Shown here: positions 44,721 through 50,726 of the stretch, piece by piece
How the letters are laid out: each line of letters begins with the position of its first letter
Numbering within the stretch: the first letter of the stretch is position 1
Source of the DNA: a miscellaneous Crenarchaeota group-6 archaeon AD8-1
Lineage (GTDB): Archaea; Thermoproteota; Bathyarchaeia; Bathyarchaeales; Bathycorpusculaceae
Length of the DNA stretch: 64,000 nucleotides
Assembly: GCA_001273385.1 (NCBI GenBank)
Contig: LFWW01000002.1
Coordinates: 62,001-126,000 of the forward strand
Direction: 5' to 3'
Notes under the pieces: model-generated
What the model was told of the DNA's origin: nothing
Databases searched by the model: none
The model's input: only the letters and a program-made list of their open reading frames with translations
Translations under genes and position numbers: made by a program

Positions 44721-46292
44721 ATGAATAATACAGAGAGTCTACAAAAAGCAATATGCAAATCTATTGAATCTGGATATCAACTTAATAGGGAAGCTTTTGA
44801 ATTTTTGAGCAAGAATACTCTAAAAGAGGATCCTATAACAATTATTAATAAAGTTCTTGAAAAAATAAGCTATTTGGATAAAAAACCGATATTTATTGAT
44901 AAAAATATTTTAGAGCAAATAATTGATCAATCAGAAAATAATTGTAAAGATAAAAAGGTCATTATTAAATCAAATGTAGATAATAATAAATTTGAAACGT
45001 TAGAACCTGAAGTTTTAGAAAGTATTAACGAAAAATTCAATCCTCCAGCAAAAAATATTAAATCGGAAATAAGAATTTTAGAAAATCCATCTAAAAGCCT
45101 AAGTTCCAATGGTACAATCGAAGATTATATTCAGTATTTTCAAGACAGATTTAGGCGTATTGAAAAGCTATTAAGACAAAGAATTGATGTAAAATCGGCT
45201 ACTACAATAAAGGAAGCATTAAAGAGGCCATTAAAATCAAAAATTAAAATAATTGGAATGATTAATGAAAAAAGAGAAATAAAACAACAAATATTTTTAA
45301 CAATTGAAGATTTGGAAACAAATGCTACTGTTCTAATACCTCGCAAAGCACCAAACAGAATTCATAGAATGGCTAAACTATTGCTTTCGGACCAAATTAT
45401 TTGTATTGAGTGTAAAAAAACAAGAAATAATTTGTTTTTAGCTGAAGAAATAATTCTTCCAGAAATTGGTTCCAAACCACAAAGAGTCGCTTCGGAACCT
45501 GTCTATGCTGTTCTTACATCCGATATACATGTCGGAAGCAACAAATTTACTGAAGAAGCATTTCAAAGGTTTGTTTTATGGTTAAACGGAAAATATGGAA
45601 ATCAAAAAGCTAGAAAAATCGCTGGACAGGTCAAATACCTTCTAATTGCAGGAGATTTGATTGATGGAGTAGGTATTTATCCCCAGCAAGAACAAGAATT
45701 AATAATTAAAGATTTCAAAAAACAGTATGAATATGCTTCAGAATTAATTAAAAAAATACCTGAATATATTGAAATTATAATAATACCTGGAAACCATGAT
45801 GCTACTAGAAAAGCCTTGCCTCAACCTGAAATAAATTTGGAATTATTAAAATCAATTCAAAAATCACAAAGAATTCACTCGCTTGGAAATCCAAGTTTAG
45901 TTAGTCTTCACGGAGTTGAAATATTAATGTTTCATGGAAGAAGCTTAGATGATCTAGTTGCTACAATTCCAGGATTAAGACATGATCAACCAGAAAAGAT
46001 GATGCAATTGCTATTGCAAAGTAGACACTTAGCTCCTTCTTATGGAGGCAAAACAATGTTGTCACCAGAAAAAAAAGATTTTCTTGTTATAAGTCATCCG
46101 CCAGATATTTTCCATGCAGGTCACACTCACGTTATGGGATTTTGTAAGTATAAGGGAGTTCTGATTGTTAATTCTGGAGGGTGGCAAGAACAAACAGAAT
46201 ATATGGAAAAATTAGGCTTAGTTCCAACACCTGGAAAAGTACCTGTAATTAATCTACAAACATTGGAAATTACAACCCTTTCATTTATTTGA
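44721..46292 (+). CDS. polB: DNA polymerase D small subunit DP1 (3'-5' exonuclease)
   Basis: This 523-residue archaeal DP1 has a helical N-terminus followed by a low-complexity linker. An OB-fold (KIKIIGMINEKREIKQQIFLTIED, about residue 172) comes next. The calcineurin-type phosphoesterase carries all metal motifs: SDIHVG (about 267), GDLIDG (about 310), GNHDATR (about 356), FHGR (about 402) and GHTH (about 466). The exonuclease is therefore likely active. It ends 7 bp from the convergent cdc6 stop; DP2 is encoded 6.5 kb downstream. Confidence 0.96.
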   Translation: MNNTESLQKAICKSIESGYQLNREAFEFLSKNTLKEDPITIINKVLEKISYLDKKPIFIDKNILEQIIDQSENNCKDKKVIIKSNVDNNKFETLEPEVLESINEKFNPPAKNIKSEIRILENPSKSLSSNGTIEDYIQYFQDRFRRIEKLLRQRIDVKSATTIKEALKRPLKSKIKIIGMINEKREIKQQIFLTIEDLETNATVLIPRKAPNRIHRMAKLLLSDQIICIECKKTRNNLFLAEEIILPEIGSKPQRVASEPVYAVLTSDIHVGSNKFTEEAFQRFVLWLNGKYGNQKARKIAGQVKYLLIAGDLIDGVGIYPQQEQELIIKDFKKQYEYASELIKKIPEYIEIIIIPGNHDATRKALPQPEINLELLKSIQKSQRIHSLGNPSLVSLHGVEILMFHGRSLDDLVATIPGLRHDQPEKMMQLLLQSRHLAPSYGGKTMLSPEKKDFLVISHPPDIFHAGHTHVMGFCKYKGVLIVNSGGWQEQTEYMEKLGLVPTPGKVPVINLQTLEITTLSFI

Positions 46293-46299
46293 ATAAAGG

Positions 46300-47529
46300 T
46301 TATTTTTTATCTTTTGAAGTTGATTTAGGTTTATAATCCAATAGTTGTCCCAATCTATTATCGATAATAAAAACATCTTTAATAATAGACCTCGAGACGT
46401 CTGATCTAATTTTTTTGGTGCGTCCATATCTACCCATGCTAACTACTTTAGCGTTTAAGAGACCCATAGCATCAAGTTCGCTAATAAGTGTGCCAAATCT
46501 ACGTTGAGTTAAAAGACAAACTCCTAATTCATTACAAAGCTCATTATATAGATCATAAATTTCTCCTGTTGTTGCATTACTCTTTTTTAGTAGATAAACA
46601 CTTAGAAGAACTAATTTTGAATGTAAAGTTAAATTTTTTAATGCATCGATTATTCTATTTTGTTCTATACGCTTTTCAGCTTCTCGCACGTGGTCATCAA
46701 TAATTATTTTATCTCCATTACGCTCAGCAACTTCACCTGCTACCCGTAATAAATCTAATGCCCGACGAGCATCTCCATGCTCTGCAGCAGCTAAAGCAGA
46801 AGCAATACTTATAGCAGAATCAGAAATACTTCCTTCATTAAAGGATAATTTTGATCGTTCAAAAAGAATATTTCGCAATTCATTTGCATTATAAGGTCTA
46901 AAAACAATTTCTTCTTCGCTTAAAGAGCTAAAAACTCGTGGATCAAGAAAGTCTTTCAATCTAAGATCATTAGAAATTCCAATTATTGATAATTTACTTT
47001 TCGAAAGAGTCTCATTTATCCTAGTCAATTCATATAATATACCATCACCTCGATTTTTTATTAATGAGTCTATTTCATCCAATACTATAATAAAGAGGGT
47101 TTTTGATGAGTCTAATCCAAGCCTAAATCTATCATATACCTCACCAACGGATAGTCCTGTAAAAGGAACTAGAACGCCAATATTTTGACTAAGACTTGCG
47201 AAAACTCTATATTCAGAATTTGTTATCCTGCAATTTAAGTAACAGAATTTAACTGACGCACCATATTCTTTTGCTTTTGATTCCAAATGACTAAGAACAT
47301 ACTTAGCAACTGCTGTTTTTCCAGTTCCAGTTTTTCCATAAATAAAAATATTTGAACATCGTGCATTTTTTAAAACTGGAGCAACAGTTGCCCCAAGAAG
47401 TTTTATTTGATCTTCTCTATGAGGCAAAGTATTAGGCAGATAATCATGTCTTAAAACTTCTCTATCTTTAAAAAGTTGTTTTGTTCTTACAAAATTATCA
47501 AAAACATCATCGAGTAAGTTTTGTTTCAT
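46300..47529 (-). CDS. cdc6: Orc1/Cdc6 replication initiator
   Basis: This 409-residue AAA+ protein binds origin repeats and helps load MCM. It has the N-terminal LRHDYLPNTLPHRE, Walker A YGKTGTGKTAV (about residue 62), Walker B IIVLDEIDSL (about 147) and sensor 1 IIGISNDL (about 183). Sensor 2 is in AAAEHGDARRALDLLR, and a C-terminal winged helix ends the protein. The frame stays open a further 48 codons upstream, but that stretch is hydrophobic and not family-like. ATG 47529 gives the standard MKQNLLDDVFDN start. The gene reads away from the putative origin. Confidence 0.96.
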   Translation of the reverse strand: MKQNLLDDVFDNFVRTKQLFKDREVLRHDYLPNTLPHREDQIKLLGATVAPVLKNARCSNIFIYGKTGTGKTAVAKYVLSHLESKAKEYGASVKFCYLNCRITNSEYRVFASLSQNIGVLVPFTGLSVGEVYDRFRLGLDSSKTLFIIVLDEIDSLIKNRGDGILYELTRINETLSKSKLSIIGISNDLRLKDFLDPRVFSSLSEEEIVFRPYNANELRNILFERSKLSFNEGSISDSAISIASALAAAEHGDARRALDLLRVAGEVAERNGDKIIIDDHVREAEKRIEQNRIIDALKNLTLHSKLVLLSVYLLKKSNATTGEIYDLYNELCNELGVCLLTQRRFGTLISELDAMGLLNAKVVSMGRYGRTKKIRSDVSRSIIKDVFIIDNRLGQLLDYKPKSTSKDKK

Positions 47530-47550
47530 TTGTATCACTATTCTCACATA

Positions 47551-47578
47551 GGTAACACCGATATTTCTATTGGAGTAA
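47551..47578 (-). promoter_or_regulatory. ORB-like element B (next to the cdc6 start)
   Basis: Read on the minus strand: CTCCAATAGAAATATCGGTG. It shares CCAATAGAAATA with element A. It lies 22 bp upstream of the cdc6 ATG, so Cdc6 bound here could also repress its own gene. Confidence 0.55.
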
Positions 47579-47672
47579 ATAAAGAATACAGTACAAAAAA
47601 ATTGTCTATAACCATAATTATTCAGAAAAAAAGGAAAAAAAATGGTAATTAAAAAAATATTGAAAAAATACA

Positions 47673-47700
47673 CTCACACACCAGAATTTCTTATGGAAAT
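47673..47700 (-). promoter_or_regulatory. ORB-like element C
   Basis: Read on the minus strand: TTCCATAAGAAATTCTGGTG, then TGTGAG. It keeps the TTCC-AGAAAT half and a GGTG in place of the G-run. Confidence 0.5.
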
Positions 47701-47714
47701 ATACTATAATGTTT

Positions 47715-47744
47715 GTGAACCCCTAATTTACTAGTATTGGAAAT
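47715..47744 (-). promoter_or_regulatory. ORB-like element D (weaker)
   Basis: Read on the minus strand: TTCCAATACTAGTAAATTAG, then GGGTTCAC. The TTCCAATA half and the GGGG run are kept, but the spacing between them is about three to four bases longer than in A and E. Confidence 0.4.
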
Positions 47745-47854
47745 ATACTCTGAAAGGTATGTAACTAAATTTATTTTATAATAATTATTGTAAAAGTTTT
47801 TAGATTAAAAATTTAGTTTTTTTCCTTTGATCTTTTTTTTCTATTATTGGGGTA

Positions 47855-47883
47855 TTTTTCGATAGGAAATCAAGGGGTGTCTG
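47855..47883 (+). promoter_or_regulatory. ORB-like element E (opposite orientation)
   Basis: Read on the plus strand: TTCGATAGGAAATCAAGGGG, then TGTC. It is the only plus-strand copy and faces element A across the AT-rich core. It shares GAAAT-AAGGGGTG with element A. Confidence 0.6.
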
Positions 47884-48003
47884 TGAAGATCGATGATTTT
47901 GATTGTATATTTCATATAATTTTTATAATATTTTTTTATAAAATTTTGGTTTTGTAGTAAACATTTATAATTTGCTAAAAAAAATTTTTTATTTTGTTTT
48001 TGG

Positions 48004-48021
48004 CTTCACATTTATGTGAAG
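48004..48021. repeat. Perfect inverted repeat inside the origin core
   Basis: CTTCACAT-TT-ATGTGAAG is a perfect 8-bp inverted repeat with a 2-base spacer, lying between the two inward-facing ORB-like elements. ATGTGAA recurs about 17 bp further on, and TTGTGAA occurs again near 48098, 48285 and 48299. It could be a dimer-binding site for one of the nearby winged-helix proteins. Confidence 0.5.
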
Positions 48022-48105
48022 TAACCTCTGTTTTAAATGTGAAAAACATGTAAATTTGATTATTTTATAAAAATTAGAGCTATTTTTAATCATTTTTTTG
48101 TGAAT

Positions 48106-48133
48106 GACCCACCCCTTTATTTCTATTGGAAAA
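48106..48133 (-). promoter_or_regulatory. ORB-like element A (best match)
   Basis: Read on the minus strand: TTCCAATAGAAATAAAGGGG, then TGGGTC. It shows the known archaeal ORB layout: a TTCCA-x-GAAA dyad half followed about three bases later by a G-run. Confidence 0.65.
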
Positions 48134-48329
48134 TTAAGCTGAAATTTTGAAATTCTATAAATTTTTTAAAATCAAAATTGCGAATATTGTGATTTTATAA
48201 TAATTATAATTTAAAATCATTTTTTAATTTTAAGCTATATTTGAATATTAAATTATTTTTATATTGACCATAACAGTTATAGGTTGTGAAAGGTTAAGAT
48301 TGTGAACGTAAAACCAGGTGTATATATTA

Positions 48330-48767
48330 ATGCCAGCTCGTAAAATGCGAGTTGAGTTGTTTGATAACGAAGGTAATAAATATACGATAGCCTTTGAAGG
48401 TCAAATTACTCGAGATAAAGCTATCAGATTACTAGATCTTGTTGAATTATTAGGTGGTATGCCTGGTGAAACTTCAACTAATCAACCTATTAACTCAATA
48501 GATCAAAATAATTTTTCAAGATTTGAAAAAGTTAAAATAATTATTCAGCAAAGATTTCCGTTAATTTGGTTTTCTTCCAAGGAGATACAATCAACTTATG
48601 AGCAAGAGTTGAAAGAACCTATCAGTCTAAGTACAGTTTCGACTTATTTAGCCAGAATGACAAAAAGAGGAATTCTTTTAAGATCAGGAAATTCAAACAA
48701 TTTAAAATATAAAATTGCACTTTTAAAGACTCAACCCATAATTGAATCTGGAATCAAATATCAATGA
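48330..48767 (+). CDS. Origin-adjacent winged-helix protein
   Basis: This 145-residue protein has a small N-terminal beta-rich domain (MRVELFDNEGNKYTIAFEG; ITRDKAIRLLDLVELLGGMP). A polar linker and a C-terminal winged helix follow (FSSKEIQSTYEQELKEPISL; VSTYLARMTKRGILLRSG). ATG 48330 has AGGTG at the right distance; a GTG at 48318 is less likely. The gene abuts the putative origin and reads away from it. Other archaea encode winged-helix initiators (WhiP/Cdt1-like) beside origins; whether this belongs there is unknown. Confidence 0.75.
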   Translation: MPARKMRVELFDNEGNKYTIAFEGQITRDKAIRLLDLVELLGGMPGETSTNQPINSIDQNNFSRFEKVKIIIQQRFPLIWFSSKEIQSTYEQELKEPISLSTVSTYLARMTKRGILLRSGNSNNLKYKIALLKTQPIIESGIKYQ

Positions 48768-48795: not shown

Positions 48796-49497
48796 CTATT
48801 TTTTACTATTAAGTATGTTTTCCATTTCTTCTTTTATTTTATATTTAAAAGGAATTTTGCCTGTTTCTCTTTCCAAATAGCCATTATCATATAATTTTTT
48901 CATTAATCTTGCAGTATGCTCTCTACTTAGATTGATTCTGTTTTTTATTTCAGGAGCTGTTTTTCCTCCCTCACTTGAAAGCAATTCTAAAACTCTTATT
49001 TCAGTTTCAGTTACTGCAGACAATGCTCTTTCTCGTCTAATTGGAATTACTGTTTCACTTTTTATTTCTGGAATCTCTGTTAATTTAGTTAATTTTTCTT
49101 CCATTTTATCTATTCTGTTTATTAATGAACTGTTTGCTTCATCTAATTTTTGTATTTTACTTTCAATTAAAGAAGCCTTGGATTCAAAATTAAAAGAGCT
49201 TTGATCAACATTGTTGAGTTTTATTTTTAGTGGATTTATTATTTTTTCTAAATTTTCAACTCTTTTAATGCTATTTTCAATTTTAGATATACTTCCATCA
49301 ACTTTATATGCTACTAATTCTGTTCGTTTGGATTCTCTTTTTAATTCCCTATTGAAACTTAAGACGATGTTTTCTATTATATTCTTGGACTTATCGTATT
49401 CATTTCTTGCTTTTCGAATTTGCTTATAATATTTGATTGATGAAGTAACAATTATTGCTAATCCAGCGAATGTTAGGATTAGGGCTATTTCAATCAA
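48796..49497 (-). CDS. Membrane-anchored coiled-coil protein with C-terminal winged helix
   Basis: This 233-residue protein has one hydrophobic helix at the N-terminus (ALILTFAGLAIIVTSSI, residues about 5-21) followed by basic residues, which places the rest in the cytoplasm. Residues about 35-145 are a long charged coiled coil (KRVENLEKIINPLKIKLNNV; LINRIDKMEEKLTKLTEI). Residues about 160-225 are a winged helix (LSSEGGKTAPEIKNRINLSR; EHTARLMKKLYDNGYLERET). This is a membrane-tethered DNA-binding layout. The start is TTG with GAAGGAACAAA upstream. The gene lies 0.7 kb from the putative origin, and its upstream DNA holds a dense TGTGAT/ATCACA cluster. Confidence 0.8.
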   Translation of the reverse strand: MIEIALILTFAGLAIIVTSSIKYYKQIRKARNEYDKSKNIIENIVLSFNRELKRESKRTELVAYKVDGSISKIENSIKRVENLEKIINPLKIKLNNVDQSSFNFESKASLIESKIQKLDEANSSLINRIDKMEEKLTKLTEIPEIKSETVIPIRRERALSAVTETEIRVLELLSSEGGKTAPEIKNRINLSREHTARLMKKLYDNGYLERETGKIPFKYKIKEEMENILNSKK

Positions 49498-49509: not shown

Positions 49510-49767
49510 TGTGATGTTTGTGTGATAAAAGTTGTTGCATCACACATCACAGTTCGTTCTATGAGATATAAATTTTATGGTAATTATGAACATTTCAAAA
49601 TTATGATATCACAGATCACAGAAACAATTCTTTATTGAATTTATTTTATGTGATTTTTGTTCTTGATTATTTTAGCTTTAAATTGTAAAAATAAGCTTTT
49701 TTATAGCTTTATTTATAACTATCGTTTAATTAACTTTATTATCATAAATGTGATATGTGATGTCACA
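49510..49767. repeat. TGTGAT/ATCACA site cluster 1
   Basis: In 258 bp the word TGTGAT or its complement occurs at 49510, 49521, 49539, 49546, 49608, 49615, 49649, 49749 and 49756, and TGTCACA follows at 49761. Several copies are exactly 7 bp apart (49539/49546, 49608/49615, 49749/49756). The first four form an imperfect long inverted repeat around AAAAGTTGTTGC. The cluster fills the gap upstream of the membrane-anchored winged-helix gene. It looks like a multi-copy binding array for a dimeric protein. Confidence 0.6.
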
Positions 49768-50239
49768 ATATTTTATTTATAGGAGAAGAAAGGCGATTTA
49801 GGCTTATTTCAAGCTCTTCTCTTATAATTTCGATTATTTTTAGATTATCTTCAGACAATTTATTTGAAGAAGATTGAGAATAAGCTTCAATATAGTCTTG
49901 AAGTTTGCTGGCAATTTCAAGGTATGGGCTAAGACTAGCGGTTTCAAATATTCCTAAATAACTTAATAATAAAATCGTATATACTGATTTTATTACATTT
50001 TCTTTAGACTGTTTTAGAGTCCTATTAAAAGACCCGCGGCTTATTTTGGACTTTATTAATCTAAAATCGGCTTTTTCATCGTATTTTACTATTTTGCCAG
50101 TCAAATTGTCAGCTAAAACGTCAATTAGGAGAGTTTCAAGCTGTATTTTAGTCAATTGACAATTTTTAAATAGTATTTTAACAATAGGATCGTTTAAAGC
50201 ATTTTTTAAATAGGTTTGAACCTTGTCTTTTGTATTTAA
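49763..50239 (-). CDS. Conserved-looking helical protein, unknown, probable non-standard start
   Basis: The first standard start is TTG 50155, giving 130 residues (LETLLIDVLADNLTGKIV; SRGSFNRTLKQSKENVIKSV; LLLSYLGIFETASLSPYLEI). The frame continues upstream in good protein-like sequence (TKDKVQTYLKNALNDPIVKI) to a TTA codon at 50239. That codon sits 8 bases after a perfect AGGAGG (50248-50253). I therefore place the probable N-terminus there (158 residues). Either TTA serves as start or a TTG has been mutated or misread. The predicted fold is mostly helical, without membrane segments. It lies between the two TGTGAT clusters, with one more ATCACA at 50287 in its promoter. Confidence 0.65.
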   Translation of the reverse strand, partial: LNTKDKVQTYLKNALNDPIVKILFKNCQLTKIQLETLLIDVLADNLTGKIVKYDEKADFRLIKSKISRGSFNRTLKQSKENVIKSVYTILLLSYLGIFETASLSPYLEIASKLQDYIEAYSQSSSNKLSEDNLKIIEIIREELEISLNRLSSPINKIL

Positions 50240-50631
50240 ACTTAAATCCTCCTGATTAGGTAGAATGAATACGGTTTTGTATACTAATCACATTTCTAAC
50301 ACTATTAAAATACTTTTATTAGATAATTTTCAAAAACTTATTACAAAATACGTCATAATATTCTATTAAAAGTAAAAATAACTATAAATCAAGCTCTAAA
50401 TAGGAAAAAAACTAATAAAATTAAATAAAAATGAAATATACGCATTTATTTTAAATTTTTATTTCATTTTATTACTTTATTTTTTTTATTTTTAATTTTT
50501 ATTTAAATATTTTCGAAATGTCAATTTAAATAATCTTATTATTGAATATTGAATACTCTTCTGAAAATTCAGGAATAAGCTTTCAGATCTTTTACTCCTT
50601 TTTATTTTGCTATTTGATAATGATTATCTTT

Positions 50632-50726
50632 TGTGATTATAAAAAATCACGCGTGATTTAAAAAAAGCATGATATCACAGCTTATGTGATCTAACTGTGA
50701 TTTGATTTTTTGCATTTTAAATCACA
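50632..50726. repeat. TGTGAT/ATCACA site cluster 2
   Basis: Over 95 bp there are TGTGAT or ATCACA words at 50632, 50674, 50685, 50696 and 50721, plus a perfect 16-bp palindrome AAATCACGCGTGATTT (50644-50659). ATCACA-GCTTA-TGTGAT (50674-50690) is an inverted pair, and the copy at 50696 repeats 11 bp after 50685. The cluster lies just downstream of the nadE stop. It is about 390 bp from the start of the next gene, so it is not a normal promoter operator. The 340 bp between it and that gene is AT-rich with nothing else visible. Confidence 0.6.

Follow-up and report, generated by a model that had tools for sequence, protein, structure and literature searches.

A predicted membrane-anchored winged-helix protein and candidate half-site arrays beside a putative replication origin in Bathyarchaeia and ammonia-oxidizing archaea

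In the archaeon AD8-1, a gene next to a putative replication origin codes for a protein, here named TMCCWH, with a predicted transmembrane (TM) helix, a coiled coil, and a winged helix. Sequence comparison showed this predicted layout, a conserved gene order, regularly spaced half-site arrays that are unique to the locus, and, in one clade, the joint loss of the gene and its putative arrays. We infer from the overall picture that TMCCWH dimerizes, resides in the membrane, and has an anchoring function. Our leading reading, tentative as it is, holds that TMCCWH tethers DNA on the origin side to the membrane and also regulates its own gene. The window, i.e., the whole stretch of 64,000 nucleotides that was analyzed, contains the following features.

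44721..46292, + strand: DP1, small subunit of DNA polymerase D, within the conserved neighborhood
46300..47529, - strand: cdc6/orc1, one of the genome's two copies
47530..48329, no strand: putative replication origin, an AT-rich gap with three ORB-like boxes and eight TGTGAA repeats
48330..48767, + strand: WH149, coding for a second small protein that resembles a winged helix; the gene converges on TMCCWH, and the origin gap lies between it and the divergently oriented cdc6
48796..49497, - strand: TMCCWH (TM helix, coiled coil, and winged helix), 233 amino acids, TTG start
49510..49761, no strand: array 1, upstream of TMCCWH, with nine TGTGAT/ATCACA half-sites (0.56 expected)
49763..50245, - strand: orf130, conserved partner gene of TMCCWH
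50267..50284, - strand: inverted repeat GTATACA-AAA-CCGTATTC, also written GTATACAnnnTGTATCC, upstream of orf130
50632..50726, no strand: array 2, seven TGTGAT/CGTGAT/ATCACA/ATCACG half-sites upstream of orf130

TMCCWH consists of a TM segment (approximately residues 1 to 22), a rod extending to residue ∼137, a linker (residues 139 to 158), and a winged helix (residues 162 to 221). In 41/41 TMCCWH sequences of the order, the best 19-residue hydropathy segment fell within the first ∼30 residues (mean Kyte-Doolittle value, 1.8 to 3.0), and lysines and arginines averaged ∼0.15 before this helix and 4.3 in the 15 residues after it (41 order homologues). Since few K/R residues precede the helix and about four follow it, the helix looks like an N-out/C-in signal anchor, as judged by hydropathy and charge pattern. 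A cleaved signal peptide, which would have counted against the sequence-only reading, was rejected from the charge distribution in the 41 homologues, in which the positive n-region is missing, and from conservation. Some lineages possess TMCCWH without the membrane helix (L215, L216, L224, L193, L195, L199, and others). Heptad-regular windows covered 123 of the 124 residues after the helix, compared to ∼48 in shuffled sequences, and coverage exceeded that of the shuffles in each of 41 homologues. AlphaFold2 modeled TMCCWH (mean pLDDT of 82) as a single continuous helix from residue 2 to 137, passing from the membrane into the rod, with a flexible linker connecting it to a winged helix (residues 164 to 231). 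Pfam assigned residues 162 to 211 to MarR (E value of 2.8e-8; 33.9 bits versus a cutoff of 24.6), and the MarR winged helix was matched in 26 of 27 homologues; ahead of it only coiled-coil look-alikes were returned, and no AAA+ domain was found in TMCCWH by the Pfam search. Thus, the N-terminal membrane helix, coiled coil, and C-terminal winged helix described in the sequence-only reading were borne out by hydropathy, heptads, Pfam, and AlphaFold2. The recognition helix is near-invariant across classes (L-S/T-R-E-H-T-A-R-L-M-K-x-L-Y). TMCCWH is not a full MarR family member: these are compact proteins of ∼140 amino acids that dimerize via helices flanking the winged helix, whereas in the TMCCWH model the TM helix and a ∼115-residue rod replace the dimerization helices, and only the winged helix aligns well. 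Its Foldseek neighbors include AspA (5k5q), a winged helix that binds a centromere in archaea. TMCCWH showed no extracellular or ligand-binding domain, and only a few of its residues would lie outside.

Within the order, TMCCWH was present in 84 of 101 genomes, nearly always in one copy; in some genomes, adjacent fragments of one frame counted as two matches. At the class level, 132 of 151 genomes had a match, a few weak coiled-coil-only matches included; TMCCWH is single-copy across Bathyarchaeia. With the winged helix as the criterion, true orthologues in the phylum were present in AmoA-bearing ammonia oxidizers and several other lineages; many phylum families (e.g., f24, f31, and f37) yielded coiled-coil matches only. 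The next gene upstream of TMCCWH was orf130 in 40/40 order loci, and cdc6 lay no more than ∼5 kb away in 38 of them, the remaining two ending at contig ends. The order DP1(+), cdc6(-), WH149(+), TMCCWH(-), orf130(-) is repeated in ammonia oxidizers (L188, L190, L191, L194, and L198), and in G336 TMCCWH (1574274) and cdc6 (540) would be adjacent if the 1577284-base record is circular, its start falling between them. The expectation that homologues stay beside cdc6 across genomes therefore held in the order as well as in ammonia-oxidizing archaea. The search of the neighborhoods used models of genes from the window, and inserts were inspected. Genes at TMCCWH loci comprised DP1, cdc6, WH149, orf130, nadE, elf1, and ggps, often DP2, and sometimes HerA-NurA. 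No ParA-type ATPase was found at the TMCCWH locus by this model search and insert inspection; ParA-like ATPases are encoded elsewhere in the genome. Approximately 18 of the 40 order loci carry a two-gene insert between WH149 and TMCCWH, which in one inspected locus (L036:7422-9963) codes for HerA (DNA translocase) and NurA (nuclease) according to Pfam. The TMCCWH locus of several further Bathyarchaeal families has no cdc6, and in 7 of 8 such genomes searched the only Cdc6 found was of a second, divergent type (28 to 32% identity). There, TMCCWH, the arrays, and usually orf130 persist without WH149 or origin-type Cdc6 (e.g., G138, G120, G124, G110, and G122). A second Cdc6, of this divergent type, was also noted at G000:C9:8101-9204 (locus L261; 31% identity).

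Half-sites were counted as the hexamers TGTGAT, ATCACA, CGTGAT, and ATCACG, which are rare in the window (54 per 64 kb). The nine sites of array 1 (at 49510, 49521, 49539, 49546, 49608, 49615, 49649, 49749, and 49756) lie within 265 bp upstream of TMCCWH and form the densest 300 bp of the 64-kb window; half-sites extend into the TMCCWH start region. The gap upstream of orf130 holds eight half-sites, counting an isolated one at 50287 (0.28 expected). Per order locus, the mean numbers were 7.4 upstream of TMCCWH, 5.3 upstream of orf130, and 0.3 in the origin gap. Spacing of same-strand half-sites peaked at 7 bp (108 versus 0.6) and 11 bp (106 versus 1.6), and that of convergent half-sites at 7 and 14 bp. 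Sharp peaks of this kind indicate an ordered multisite array and not one operator; the arrays flanking orf130 are iteron-like and newly found here. When motif positions were tallied against TMCCWH gene positions, 91 of the 92 occurrences of the strict motif TGTGATNTGTGATGNNA in 101 order genomes fell within ∼1.6 kb of TMCCWH, the sole exception being at G006:C101. Exact copies of TGTGATNTGTGAT numbered three in the genome of AD8-1, all of them at the TMCCWH locus. Since the strict motif is confined to this locus, binding is expected at one locus and not across a regulon, and a global regulon of TMCCWH was ruled out. Where TMCCWH lies downstream of other genes, the densest half-site cluster is found further upstream (e.g., L206, L208, L210, and L217). 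The same half-site occurs upstream of the TMCCWH orthologue of ammonia oxidizers. In G067 (L043), a third dense TGTGAT/ATCACA cluster was observed ∼9.4 kb from the start of the TMCCWH open reading frame.

We propose that TMCCWH, a winged-helix protein, is anchored in the membrane by a single pass and probably forms a coiled-coil dimer; its rod (∼17 nm if fully extended) would leave the membrane and keep the DNA-binding domain on the cytoplasmic side. TMCCWH would bind the TGTGAT half-site arrays on both sides of orf130, 1 to 3 kb from the origin. With many phased sites occupied at once, a chromosomal segment would be tied to the membrane in a centromere- or anchoring-site-like manner, and TMCCWH would at the same time repress its own promoter and, perhaps, the orf130 promoter. 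We favor this anchoring or centromere-like reading because the only recognizable genome sites of a membrane-anchored protein would be one array beside the origin. In bacteria, RacA, Noc, and the membrane anchors of ParB or origin regions link origin-side arrays to the membrane or the cell pole. Any likeness of TMCCWH to such proteins concerns the mode of action only, and a sequence relationship is not expected. Among archaea, AspA of the pNOB8 AspA-ParBA system, itself a winged helix and the Foldseek neighbor mentioned above, recognizes a site located upstream of the gene that encodes it (PMC5120986), and thus archaeal winged helices can act in a centromere-like fashion from such sites. Site-specific binding upstream of the own gene, as in AspA and in SegB of SegAB (PMC12284271), is what we propose for TMCCWH, and an array in this position, typical of centromere-binding proteins, is present, private, and conserved for TMCCWH as the candidate binder. 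In contrast to TMCCWH, no membrane helix or rod is described for AspA and SegB, and both are encoded beside ParA-type ATPases. That no such ATPase gene was identified at the TMCCWH locus speaks against anchoring, as it leaves no motor for active segregation. Likewise, the sites in the TMCCWH start region fit plain autoregulation equally well, the TMCCWH module outlasts origin-type Cdc6, and the membrane helix was lost in some lineages, in three of which half-sites are still partly present.

Anchoring combined with autoregulation appears most likely, closely followed by a membrane-bound autoregulator that acts on transcription alone. In the latter case, TMCCWH would be a one-component regulator of the TTR type that senses a membrane or envelope signal, binds the arrays, and controls only itself and orf130, its adjacency to cdc6 being old shared replication-gene synteny devoid of positional meaning; we regard this as a possible, if somewhat doubtful, explanation. 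Membrane-bound DNA-binding regulators are already a known kind and are common in archaea (PMC10269533). TTRs are defined there by a predicted TM segment plus a DNA-binding domain, and TMCCWH resembles them in combining one predicted membrane segment and a DNA-binding domain in one protein. The membrane-bound archaellum regulators of Sulfolobus (PMC6396743) are an example. Consistent with transcription control from the membrane, the candidate sites of TMCCWH were found only upstream of itself and orf130, the arrays falling precisely in these two regions, and array, TMCCWH, and orf130 stay together where origin-type Cdc6 was lost. However, ∼12 half-sites per locus are far above the need of a simple operator, and with no further strict-motif target in its own genome or in 101 relatives (one exception), the output would be only itself and orf130. 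The missing extracellular or ligand-binding domain also argues against a sensor. Unlike TTRs, TMCCWH has an N-terminal helix and a long coiled-coil rod, is single copy, and keeps its place next to the origin in most relatives; its candidate array is private to one locus, and a known transcriptional target is lacking. In the open literature, we found no described membrane-bound regulator with the architecture, synteny, or private array of TMCCWH. The sequence-only reading had left the choice between an origin-membrane tether and a membrane-signal regulator. A predicted DNA target, the private half-site arrays, has now been found beside the gene, and a strictly origin-bound role is weakened by the persistence of TMCCWH and arrays after loss of origin-type Cdc6 and by the loss of the helix in some lineages.

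In a further explanation, TMCCWH would limit initiation by sequestering or handcuffing the nearby origin at the membrane through the iteron-like arrays. Three ORBs of classical form lie in the cdc6-WH149 gap of the window (47718-47742, - strand; 47855-47879, + strand; 48110-48134, - strand), and ORBs occupy the same gap in nearly all homologous loci. The last ORB is ∼0.66 kb from TMCCWH, close to the ∼0.7 kb from the putative origin stated in the sequence-only reading. GC skew gave no clear origin signal across the window. Besides the ORBs, eight TGTGAA repeats are present in the gap (47714 to 48306). Across 37 order origin gaps, TGTGAA occurred 175 times versus 44 expected, and it is kept in the origin gap of a TMCCWH-less clade (27 versus 7.9 expected). 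TGTGAA is possibly a second, undescribed origin element, perhaps read by a protein other than TMCCWH, with WH149 as a candidate. TGTGAT sites within the origin were ruled out, TGTGAA being found there instead. Control of replication would agree with the iteron-like spacing, the position of the arrays 1 to 3 kb from the ORBs, the neighbors cdc6, WH149, DP1, and often DP2, and the related but distinct repeat in the origin. We nevertheless consider it unlikely: the origin gap shows no excess of TGTGAT (11 versus 16.5 expected), TMCCWH persists where origin-type Cdc6 is absent, and in one entire Bathyarchaeal clade the origin is kept but TMCCWH and the arrays are not. Like TMCCWH, the WhiP/Cdc6 initiators (PMC4010727) are winged-helix proteins encoded beside the origin, but they bind origin boxes, whereas TMCCWH is predicted to be membrane anchored. 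Origin initiators bind sites within the origin and have AAA+ or paired winged helices; TMCCWH has no AAA+ domain by Pfam, and its candidate half-site is not overrepresented in the origin gap. UBP, an origin-binding nucleoid protein of Sulfolobus (PMC12141716), is like TMCCWH a noninitiator with a motif at archaeal origins, but binds hundreds of genome sites, in contrast to the one-locus motif and the putative membrane anchor of TMCCWH. A search of the open literature found no paper combining Bathyarchaeota, origin of replication, and cdc6.

The clade without TMCCWH bears on which protein reads the arrays. It does possess WH149 and orf130, the two being directly adjacent in most loci, yet only 0 to 3 half-sites were found within 1 kb of orf130, whereas the 56 loci with TMCCWH had a median of 14. 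The difference had a Mann-Whitney p of 1.9e-5, which overstates independence, as only 1 or 2 independent events fall on the cdc6 tree; these were too few for an independent-pairs test of joint array and TMCCWH loss. Because the arrays vanish with the gene while TGTGAA stays, and because of the near-invariant recognition helix, TMCCWH is the likeliest TGTGAT reader, and we infer with good confidence that it binds the private arrays. The orf130 protein gave an all-helical, confident model (pLDDT of 90) with an HTH-like motif (ISRGxFNRTLxQA); it could be assigned to no Pfam family, comparison with the PDB gave no match (best E value of 0.78), and the model might possibly represent a new DNA-binding fold. 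The conserved frame of orf130 reaches 50245, and its first standard start codon is at 50155; the usual TTG/ATG start position reads TTA here (50155-50245, - strand). A congener (L032) likewise lacks a standard start codon there, which suggests an unusual start codon or a recent change. The inverted repeat GTATACAnnnTGTATCC upstream of orf130 is common to Bathyarchaeia and ammonia-oxidizing archaea and looks like a separate operator. That orf130 or WH149 binds the TGTGAT array, with TMCCWH a mere neighbor that happens to be regulated by it, is quite improbable. In its favor, both are nearly always nearby, orf130 has its HTH-like motif, and WH149 may bind the related TGTGAA repeat; against it, the clade that keeps both genes lost the TGTGAT arrays and kept the TGTGAA repeats of the origin, and orf130 has a different conserved inverted repeat of its own.

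How chromosomes are placed and segregated is an open question in many archaea, for which TMCCWH offers a conserved candidate, present in one copy and with a defined DNA target close to the origin. In its broadest form, which we put forward with some reserve, the anchoring reading would describe a self-encoded, motorless chromosomal anchoring system, i.e., one without ParA, of Bathyarchaeia and ammonia-oxidizing archaea, in which TMCCWH, by binding one private iteron array, might fix the origin region to the membrane. The pair of TMCCWH and array is kept in ammonia-oxidizing archaea and is specific enough for direct testing; Nitrosopumilus maritimus has one mapped origin (PMC4010727). Even if TMCCWH were only a membrane-bound autoregulator, the module of cdc6, WH149, TMCCWH, and orf130 would still define three uncharacterized origin-neighborhood genes and two new repeat elements.
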